DNA from: a bacterium
GTDB lineage: Bacteria > AUK180
NCBI GenBank assembly: GCA_023144005.1
Contig: JAGLGN010000005.1
Span: forward strand, 1 to 64,000
Direction of reading: 5' to 3'
Length of the DNA stretch: 64,000 bases
Part shown: piece by piece, positions 5,481 to 55,136 of the stretch
How positions within the stretch are numbered: position 1 is the stretch's first letter
How the letters are laid out: every line of letters begins with the position of its first letter
Translations under genes and position numbers: made by a program
Notes under the pieces: generated by a model
Told to the model about the DNA's origin: nothing
The model's input: only the letters and a program-made list of their open reading frames with translations
Databases searched by the model: none

Positions 5481-5750
5481 GTTAAGAAGGAAAAAAGAAG
5501 CACAACCGCAAACGAAAAACCGTTATTTCGCTTACACCAATAATTCTTCTGTTACAATCGTTTCACGCCGTACCCCAACCCAGATATGGGACAAGCTTCG
5601 CAGTGCACTAGTGGACCCTGGGACAAGTGCACCAGTAAGGAGATCGTTCAAAAGTCCAAGGTAGATAAATAGGGAAGATATGGGATATGTCCTGTTTTCC
5701 GGATGTTCCACTGGGATACCGGGTCACTGGGTCCACTTGTTTAGCTGTTT

Positions 5751-5787
5751 GTCATTCTGAAGGAGCGTTAGCGACCGAAGAATCCAT
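5751..5787 (-). repeat. constant-flank hairpin repeat
   Basis: Read on the minus strand this begins ATGGATTCTTC and ends AGAATGAC. It is nearly the same sequence as 39578-39614 in the opposite orientation, and shares its outer flanks with the hairpins at 33043-33072 and 39357-39383. Confidence 0.7.
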
Positions 5788-5908
5788 CCGCTTCTTCTTA
5801 TCTTAACCTTGTGCACTTGTCACTTGTGCTCGTGGGCACTTATCAACCTACAAACCTATCACCTTCTACTTGCTCACCTCGCACCTCGTTCGCCACGCGA
5901 ACGATCGT

Positions 5909-39564: not shown

Positions 39565-39577
39565 GATAGGAAAGGGG

Positions 39578-39614
39578 ATGGATTCTTCAGTCGCTACCGC
39601 TCTTTCAGAATGAC
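39578..39614 (+). repeat. constant-flank hairpin repeat
   Basis: ATGGATTCT ... AGAATGAC frames a 20-nt core. An almost identical copy is inverted at 5751-5787. Confidence 0.7.
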
Positions 39615-39640
39615 AAATATGTGTCTATTTTATCTCATAA

Positions 39641-39700: not shown

Positions 39701-39973
39701 AGTGTACTGTTCCATAAATACTATGTCAATGGAATGTTTAGATTTGAGTCAATTCCAACAAACGATGAGTGCGGCGTACCCTTTGTGGTCCGGAAGCGAA
39801 GAGAGAGGAAGAAATTGATCAAAGATGACATTCCCTTCGGGCTGAAGCTCTTTTTCTGTCTTCTGCGTTGCTCGTTGCTTACATACCGCTGTGGGTATGC
39901 CGCGCTCCTCGCGCCTTGAATACAAATCAAAATAGCATCAGCCATTGTTATGGTATTTATGGAACAGTACACT
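39701..39973 (-). mobile_element. foldback (MITE-like) element, copy 1, complete
   Basis: The 273-bp element has terminal inverted repeats that match for 21 bp without a mismatch (AGTGTACTGTTCCATAAATAC) and then less well through CAATGG. Inner segments also pair, for example GCGCGGCATACCC with GGGTACGCCGCAC, so each arm is about 90 nt. An ~80-codon frame with QRRRQKKSFSP is shared with copies 2 and 3 but has no transposase features. It has inserted inside a composite intergenic repeat: the flanks GTCCCATATC and GTTGGGGT.CGGCG are contiguous at ~5568-5595 (minus strand). A partner transposase must be elsewhere. Confidence 0.85.
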
Positions 39974-46200: not shown

Positions 46201-46486
46201 ATTCTCCTCCTTCTCTGCATTCTATCAAAAAAGTCTGCAAGCACAAAATAGAGGTAAGGTTTTCAGTCCTATTTTAGCTTCTTTTCTCAAGTATCACATT
46301 ATACACAGGACCGGTACCGAAAATGAATTCCCGCACCTTCCAGGGGGTGCCTTCCAGAAATCCCGATAACTCCTCAGGTGAAAAGAAAAGATAGTCGAAC
46401 CATTCTCCTTTGTACATTTTGTAAAGGATTCTTATGGTCGTATGCCCTGCCATCCGTCCTCTGCTTCTATTGAATTCATGATAGTT

Positions 46487-46757
46487 AGTGTTCTGATTCC
46501 TAGATCCGATGATAATGGCTGACGCTATTTTGTTACGGATTCAAGACGCGAGGAGCGCTGCATACCCAACGCGGTATGTAAGCGACGAGCAACGCAGAAG
46601 ACAGAAAAAGAGCTTCAGCCCGGAGGGAACATCATCTTTGGTCAATTTCTTCCTCTCTCTTCGCTTACGGACCACAAAGGTACGCCGCGCTTATTGTTCG
46701 TTGGAATTGACTCAAATCTAAACATTCCATTGTCATCGGATCTAGGAATCAGAACAC
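46487..46757 (+). mobile_element. foldback (MITE-like) element, copy 2, complete
   Basis: The ends GTGTTCTGATTCCTAGATCC at both termini are identical over 25 bp and continue as GATGA[TC]AATGG. The interior matches copies 1 and 3, including the QRRRQKKSFSP frame and the GCGCTGCATACCC / GGTACGCCGCGC inner arms. It interrupts the methyltransferase gene after codon 179 of the reconstructed frame. No clear target duplication is seen. Confidence 0.85.
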
Positions 46758-47170
46758 ATGGTGCTCTTTTTTCTCGGTCTGATATACATTATTCGATTCA
46801 CCTATGATCAATGCTTCTTCAGAGGTTATTTTCGCCAGTTTCTCCAATAATTCTCTGCCCTTTTCGGGAGAGGCCAGAAGCGATAGATTATTTCCCATCA
46901 TTATCACAGTATCAAAGACACCCAAAGAATCACCCATATCGTATACGGAGATCTCACGAATATCTTTAAGGCCCCGCTCTCTGCAGACCTTCACCGCCAA
47001 TGGCGAGTTATCGACACCGACCACTTCATGCCCATTTTGCTGGAGATCCAATGAGAACCTGCCCGCACCGCAGCCGATATCAAGTACTCTGCCATGGGCA
47101 TTATCAATGGCTTTGCGGTTGATCTCACTCCAGTCATTGCGCTCGGAAAAATAGGTAGTCGGTCCGAATA

Positions 47171-47443
47171 AGTGATCTGATCCATAAATACGGGAACAAT
47201 GGCTGATGGTATTTTAATCAGTATTCAAGGAGCAAGGAACGCCGCATACCCACAGCGGTATGTAAGCGACGAGCAACGCAGAAGACAGAAAAAGAGCTTC
47301 AGCCCGAAGGGAATATCATCTTTGGTCAATTTCTTCCTCTCTCTTCGCTTACGGACCACAGAGGGTACGCCACGCTTATTGTTCGTTGGAATTGACTCAA
47401 ATCTAAACATTCCATTGTCACCATATTTATGAATCAGAACACT
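47171..47443 (+). mobile_element. foldback (MITE-like) element, copy 3, complete
   Basis: The ends AGTGATCTGATCCATAAATA and AGTGTTCTGATTCATAAATA (inner direction) match at 18 of 20 positions, and pairing continues to CAATGG. The interior is nearly identical to copies 1 and 2. It interrupts the methyltransferase gene after codon 41. The base at 47443 may belong to the target rather than to the element. Confidence 0.85.
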
Positions 47444-47558
47444 AAAAGCATCAACATATCCGTCGTCCCTCTCAACGATCTCGACCACATCGCGATCACC
47501 ATTATGATAATCCCATATCAAGTGCCCATAGGCATCATTGTCCCAAACACTTCTTTCA

Positions 47559-48332
47559 TTATTCATTCGCAGACTCCCCATTCTGAAAGTTAAACCCGCA
47601 TTTTTTCAATTGCTTTGATATCTTATCCGTCTCAGGATGAAATTGCCCCCACTTTCGAGAAATATGTTCTGTCCATGAATAATTGTCGAAATTAAAGGTC
47701 TCCTTTCTTTCACCGGTCAAGTCGATCATCGCGTCAAGCCGTTTGTAATACTCCTGAGCAAGATAACCCTTATCCATGACATCCATCGCTTCTTCGACAA
47801 CTTCATCATTGAGCTCCTCATATTCATTTTTGAACAAGGTAAAATTCAATGGATATCTGGGCCGTGTCGGGAATATCTCATCAGGTACACCCACGGTCAA
47901 CTGAACAAAAGGAAATACTTTTTGCGGCAGTTTCATTTTTTTATTCAAAGCTGCAGCGTAATATGGAGTATATCCAAGGAAACATGTACCAAAACCCATT
48001 GATTCCGCGGCGAGAACAAGATTCTGCGCAAAATACGAAGCATCCTGTATTCCGAGTATAAATGAATAGAGATCATTAGTGATCCATTCCCAGTTCCGTT
48101 TATCCATGATCCTGGAGAACTTATGCACGTCAACACATATGGTAAAAAGCAACGGAGCTCCTAATGGAAGCTTGCCTTCTGTTTCGTAGACAACAGAATA
48201 CATCTGACCCGCGAATGCCGCGCATTGCGCCGTTTCCACCAGCTGTTCAATGACATTATCTGAGATTTTATCCTTTTTGTACTTTCTCACGGAGCGGTGC
48301 TCCCTCATAAGTTCGATGATTTTATTTTTCAT
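47559..48332 (-). CDS. nitroreductase family protein
   Basis: The 257-residue flavoprotein belongs to the NfsA/NfsB superfamily that reduces nitro or quinone compounds with NAD(P)H. It shows REHRSVRKYKKDKIS near 10-24, the ETAQCAAFAGQMYSV region near 33-47, a QDASYFAQNLVLAAESMGFGTCFLG stretch near 96-120 and TVGVPDE near 147. The C-terminal ~60 residues (WTEHISRKWGQF) match the longer NfsA-like group. A promoter 5 nt before the ATG implies a leaderless transcript. The methyltransferase gene overlaps its stop codon by 8 nt. Confidence 0.9.
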   Translation of the reverse strand: MKNKIIELMREHRSVRKYKKDKISDNVIEQLVETAQCAAFAGQMYSVVYETEGKLPLGAPLLFTICVDVHKFSRIMDKRNWEWITNDLYSFILGIQDASYFAQNLVLAAESMGFGTCFLGYTPYYAAALNKKMKLPQKVFPFVQLTVGVPDEIFPTRPRYPLNFTLFKNEYEELNDEVVEEAMDVMDKGYLAQEYYKRLDAMIDLTGERKETFNFDNYSWTEHISRKWGQFHPETDKISKQLKKCGFNFQNGESANE

Positions 48333-55044: not shown

Positions 55045-55136
55045 AGTGTGCTGTTCTATAAATAGCACGACAATGGAATGCTTAGATTTGAGTCAATTTC
55101 AACGAACGATGAGCGCGGCATACCATTTGTGGTCCG
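55045..55136 (-). mobile_element. foldback element, copy 4, truncated
   Basis: AGTGTGCTGTTCTATAAATA and the following CAATGGAATG...GGTCCG match one arm of copies 1-3 for about 92 bp. Similarity then stops and the lysE promoter begins. The other arm and terminal repeat are missing, so the element is dead. Confidence 0.8.

Follow-up and report, generated by a model that had tools for sequence, protein, structure and literature searches.

A bacterial methyltransferase gene split twice by a MITE-like foldback element

The split methyltransferase gene

The window, by which we mean the whole 64,000-nt stretch of DNA from an uncultured bacterium analyzed here, carries on its minus strand a methyltransferase gene in three pieces that are separated by two copies of one element:

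47443..47566, minus strand: N-terminal piece of the methyltransferase gene, ATG at 47566; 83% amino acid identity to G001:C97:20467-20589 of a sister species, which likewise runs into an element
47171..47443, minus strand: element copy A, AGTG...CACT, 273 bp, an imperfect hairpin over its whole length (the earlier cut, GTG...CACT, covers 272 nt, 47171-47442)
46758..47170, minus strand: middle piece, bearing the SAM-binding motif DIGCGAGRF
46487..46757/8, minus strand: element copy B, 271-272 bp, with a perfect 25-bp terminal stem that carries the variant CCTAGATCCGATG
46274..46486, minus strand: C-terminal piece, ending in the stop TAA; dN/dS 0.05 versus the sister species

Each copy folds end to end into a single hairpin (dG -110 and -117 kcal/mol, z -9.2 and -10.6 for copies A and B, respectively) and the two are ~88% alike, in agreement with the preliminary description of one gene interrupted twice, at these positions, by the same foldback element. 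Recomputation also reproduced the reading frame that it reported: when GTG...CACT is cut out (272 and 271 nt), the three pieces (124, 413 and 213 nt) add up to 750 nt, 249 codons plus TAA, with no stop or frameshift. The joined protein of 249 amino acids is a class I SAM methyltransferase, the intactness claimed for it being borne out by a Methyltransf_25 match (2.7e-11) and by the motif in the middle piece. An orthologue in G002, a genome of the same family, is uninterrupted (60% identity) and of equal length across both joins, where it reads DASLLGP and EHLDYH versus DAFIFGP and EHHNYH in the joined protein. Among the named genomes, the middle piece matched solely a gene of a Dehalococcoidia MAG, at 53% identity. 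As the gene stands, the N-terminal frame extends 77 codons into copy A before reaching a stop; in copy B, the middle frame is closed after only two codons. Since both frames end inside the elements, the split methyltransferase is unlikely to be active in this strain; the same stops, lying in the gene's frames inside both copies, rule out in-frame read-through of the elements.

The element family and its relatives

Using the gene with its inserts as query, we found 74 match places in this genome (G000; 2.67 Mb, 38 contigs), about 40 of them near full length, and dozens of the copies are 84-92% identical to copy A. The sister species (G001) holds a similar number of element matches and none were found in the 58 other genomes searched (G002-G059); among the 60 genomes searched, the family is confined to this genus. 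A 17-nt terminal pattern, with <=2 mismatches allowed, gave 210 matches in G000 and 263 in G001 (reversed control, 0), indicating that partial and rearranged copies are common. The same ends bound element variants that are 143, 234 or about 525 nt long. Two further copies lie in the window:

39701..39973, plus strand: third full element copy, by the same orientation convention as the methyltransferase copies on the gene strand; outside the predicted genes and part of a larger repeated unit
55045..55136, plus strand: partial element copy, 92 nt, one arm

Short, non-coding, bounded by terminal inverted repeats and present in many copies, the element fits the definition of a MITE. A base change in one arm of the terminal stem is often accompanied by the matching change in the other (pairs 6-276, 10-272, 11-271 and 12-270), and the stem variant of copy B is identical in both of its arms and occurs nowhere else in G000 or G001; such matched changes could come from arm-to-arm copying or from selection for pairing.

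Self-insertion of the element around GTATGTAAGCGACGAGCAACGC places arms beside full copies and was seen repeatedly at this one internal site, in L009, L010, L014, L024, L033, L036, L042, L087 and L097, several deep in L024. The copy at 39701-39973 and those at L030, L031 and L095 sit in similar larger repeated units with the flanks ...CACCCCAACAT / GGATATGGGACATGTCGTAC...; since the four copies are 97-99% alike, the entire composite probably underwent duplication. Another abundant repeat (GATATGGGACATGTCGTACGCC...GCAAAGAGTT...AAACTCTTTGC), which often hosts the element near its own hairpin loop, is found in the flanks of L011, L012, L014, L016, L017, L018, L024 and L094. A further dispersed repeat is represented in the window by a 46-nt inverted repeat pair (TTTGTCATTCTGAAGGAGCG...) at 5748-5793 and 39572-39617. 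Finally, many contigs end in or near elements (e.g., C29, C30 and C24 of G000; C30 and C97 of G001), and element insertions are therefore probably undercounted.

In the hunt for an autonomous partner, the element ends that were fetched either bound the 143-525-nt variants or had no second end nearby, and no transposase was noticed behind the ends that were read. The parent transposon has been lost for many MITEs. A YTAR-type target resembles that of IS5; IS5-related mobilization was nevertheless set aside because the IS4/IS5-type transposase (DDE_Tnp_1) is missing from both genomes and only the target is IS5-like. Neither the DDE_Tnp_1 nor the DDE_Tnp_1_6 profile matched in G000 or G001. Both genomes do contain Y1_Tnp genes, none of them at the listed element ends: five Y1 transposase genes (PF01797) in G000 (C25:41650-41991, C25:45530-45865, C33:42723-43055, C13:249217-249552 and C1:22136-22468) and six matches in G001. 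Y1 transposases are possible movers of palindromic repeats.

By structure and behavior, this is a new family of a known, MITE-like kind, and a limited literature search yielded no earlier description matching its ends or target. Bacterial MITEs such as ERIC and Correia are likewise short and apparently non-coding, end in inverted repeats and reach dozens to hundreds of copies, which lie mostly between genes and only occasionally inactivate one (PMC10969869). The present element, with no sequence relation to these shown, differs in its CTAG/YTAR target, in its frequent nesting at one internal site and in that no parent IS was found with the transposase profiles searched. Rickettsia palindromic elements (RPE) also lie inside protein-coding genes but are read through in frame, adding peptides (PMC10969869), whereas the N-terminal and middle frames here stop inside the elements. 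A further and close parallel, drawn by description rather than by sequence, is the high-copy MITE that interrupts a metabolic gene, hupL, of the uncultured bacterium Ca. Thiomargarita nelsonii (PMC4853749); that case differs in its single insertion, in a gene reported to be otherwise incomplete and in its proposed parent.

Target sites and other split genes

Scanning G000 and G001 for frames that reopen when an element is cut out revealed at least six split genes besides the methyltransferase:

L020: GNAT gene, split in G000, uninterrupted in G001
L013: gene of unknown function, split in G000, uninterrupted in G001
L088: OGG-like gene, split in G001, uninterrupted in G000
L090: EamA transporter gene, split in G001, uninterrupted in G000
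L091: P-loop gene, split in G001, uninterrupted in G000
L089: MFS transporter gene, split in G001, no counterpart found in G000

The frame is retained in all seven split genes, and comparison of L013, L020, L088, L090 and L091 with their uninterrupted counterparts showed no stops or indels off the junction and dN/dS values of 0.07-0.20. Relative to the split genes, elements point either way. The GTG...CACT cut that restores the frame at copies A and B also does so in L089 and L091, but it leaves L013, L020 and L090 out of frame (3/8 genic sites) and creates a stop in L088 (CTA TAA), so that removal by one fixed boundary is rejected as a general rule. A frame is clearly split at only 4 of the ~45 G000 sites read (an approximate count, made without full gene prediction), as expected if genic hits are purged, and at three more G000 sites (L026, L036 and L040) the insertion lies at a gene end.

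Empty orthologous sites confirm insertion at L022, L013, L020, L037, L088 and L091, and at the EamA locus of G000 (L136 versus L090). The target is exact at L022, where the empty site reads AATCTAGTATT and the filled site AAT-CTAG-TG...CA-CTAG-TATT. Over 39 sites, YT is favored on the left and AR on the right (YT^AR). While CTAG stands on both sides in L022, the two tetramers are unequal at most other sites, including those of the methyltransferase, where they are TTAG/CTTA for copy A (left TTAG, which is CTAG in G001; right CTT) and CATG/CTAA for copy B (left CATG; right CTA). In our own reading of the alignments, the length of filled versus empty sites departs by -4 to +1 from that expected for a clean AGTG...CACT insertion.

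When the copy B junction is rebuilt around a CTAG target, it reads CAC CTA GAC TAT, or HLDY, an exact match to G002, and at genic sites a target of this kind usually brings back the residues seen in the uninterrupted relative (EHLDYH at copy B, D-L-G in L013, L-E in L088 and L-A in L090). On these grounds the junctions may be read as target duplications of CTAG that have lost a few nucleotides, often on one side, which makes doubtful the earlier statement that no target duplication is needed. Of the joins predicted at the same time, the alignment to the G002 orthologue across both holds at equal length, but the join residues are probably wrong. An AGTG...CACT element placed at CT^AG with a 1-nt loss is formally equivalent, describing the same letters, and the unequal tetramers beside young copies would be compatible with either an eroded duplication or a clean CT^AG insertion with losses. 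The tetramers beside young copies are altered, often from CTAG to CTT, CTTG or CTA on one side (L013, L020, L088 and window positions 47171 and 46487), which suggests damage at the hairpin base, at or soon after insertion.

Age of the insertions, probable exchange and rival explanations

In the sister species, contig C97 breaks off after the first 116 nt of copy A and contig C30 opens with the last 122 nt of copy B, indicating that both methyltransferase sites are occupied there too. The middle piece was not found in the G001 assembly; it was either too short to survive between repeats or recombined out, leaving one hybrid element, and the visible element ends of 116 and 122 nt are compatible with both. 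Between the two species, the N- and C-terminal pieces together have a dS of 0.46 and a dN of 0.046 (dN/dS 0.10), and thus selection acted for most of their divergence. The 122 nt of copy B and the adjoining 27 nt of the gene (149 nt) are identical in G000 and G001, whereas the remaining 186 nt of the C-terminal piece have 20 differences (about 11%; P 4e-8 without exchange) and the element at another site common to both species is 8.9% different. The simplest reading of this contrast would be a recent exchange of copy B and its flank between the species, although a chimeric contig end in G001 could also produce the 149-nt identity. Copy A differs at 5/116 nt, so its shared state is less recent than that of copy B, although each of these variants is present elsewhere in the family.

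Genic copies carry on average 1.9 singletons per 273 nt versus 3.4 in other copies (p 0.09) and show 18.6 versus 22.9 differences from the consensus (p 0.018); copy A and the L013 copy have no singletons at all. The terminal branches of genic copies are 0.04-0.07 (FastTree), which at face value points to long residence and hence to genes that kept working. Most of the differences from the consensus are variants common to several family members and, for this reason, an old ancestral insertion argued from the 4-7% branches was set aside. With so few singletons and most differences common within the family, the genic copies are probably young members of a mixed source pool. Over 4.7 kb of split genes, 4.6 stops or indels would be expected at assumed decay rates if all singletons postdated insertion and all the split genes lost function immediately, versus none seen off the junctions (P about 0.01), a mild tension with recent insertion into dead genes.

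Taken with the repeat family, the insertion sites, the empty sites, frame retention in seven genes and the low private divergence of genic copies, we consider it highly probable that a non-autonomous, MITE-like foldback element has spread recently, that the methyltransferase was hit twice and most likely inactivated and that the allele was exchanged with the sister species. The ~273-bp element (AGTG...CACT or, equivalently, TG...CA plus a CTAG target duplication) would have been mobilized by a transposase acting in trans and would have spread in the genus mostly without splitting genes. One accessory methyltransferase gene would have been struck twice, at CTAG sites, with loss of function the most likely outcome, and its pieces would look intact because decay is slow compared with the age of the insertions. 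The split allele, or a segment no smaller than copy B and the sequence next to it, may recently have passed between the species by recombination. That the gene reads cleanly without its inserts appears to be due mainly to the youth of the insertions. The preliminary description had offered recent insertion or, alternatively, removal or bypass of the elements; the former gains from the few singletons of genic copies, their closeness to the consensus and the six other split genes without decay, and the latter found no support.

Removal or bypass would mean that the paired ends of this genus-specific hairpin meet and that the insert is removed from the transcript or skipped by the ribosome, so that the gene still works and split genes are tolerated under selection. 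The very stable whole-length hairpins, the paired stem changes across copies, the dN/dS of 0.10 in the two pieces visible in both species, each with element sequence at both sites, and the lack of decay in the split genes compared all fit such a mechanism. The stem covariation can, however, also arise by arm-to-arm copying, the one cut loses the frame in L013, L020 and L090 and gains a stop in L088, orientation relative to the gene varies, and the few copies that split genes are unexpected if insertions were harmless. Nor does the element behave as a self-splicing intron: an Rfam scan of the window at gathering scores matched only rRNA and tRNAs, with no catalytic RNA fold, and across genes there is neither a single orientation nor an exact boundary. 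IStrons and group I introns (PMC4227781) are similar in that exact removal of a mobile insert would restore the frame, and the present element differs from them in the lack of an Rfam intron match in the window, in its occurrence in both orientations and in its inconsistent boundary. We therefore judge it very improbable both that the gene still works in this way and that paired hairpin ends underlie a general tolerance of split genes; the slight chance that we leave to it is owed mainly to the missing decay events (4.6 versus 0).

Precise excision from the DNA in part of the population, with intact and split alleles coexisting, is improbable as well. Slippage is known to delete long palindromes that lie between short direct repeats, and the sister species has empty sites, but the unequal tetramers at the methyltransferase sites would hinder precise slippage and most of those empty sites lack CTAG, looking never hit rather than excised. 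Even harder to credit is that both insertions are old and were already present in the common ancestor of the two species, the pieces being kept by chance or as separate peptides. Element sequence at both G001 sites would fit such an origin, and against it stand the 122 identical nt of copy B (versus 8.9% in the element shared elsewhere), the lack of a singleton variant in copy A and the early ends of the N-terminal and middle frames inside the elements.

With recent spread as the preferred explanation, a family whose empty and filled sites can be matched between two species is useful for timing insertion, as well as for following the alteration of target sites by small insertions and for examining whether split alleles move between species. 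If it were true that the inserts are removed or skipped, they would constitute a new class of bacterial intervening sequence.

At one other shared insertion (L106 versus L034), the flanks are >99% identical between the species and the element only ~97%, indicating that identity between G000 and G001 varies strongly along the genome.
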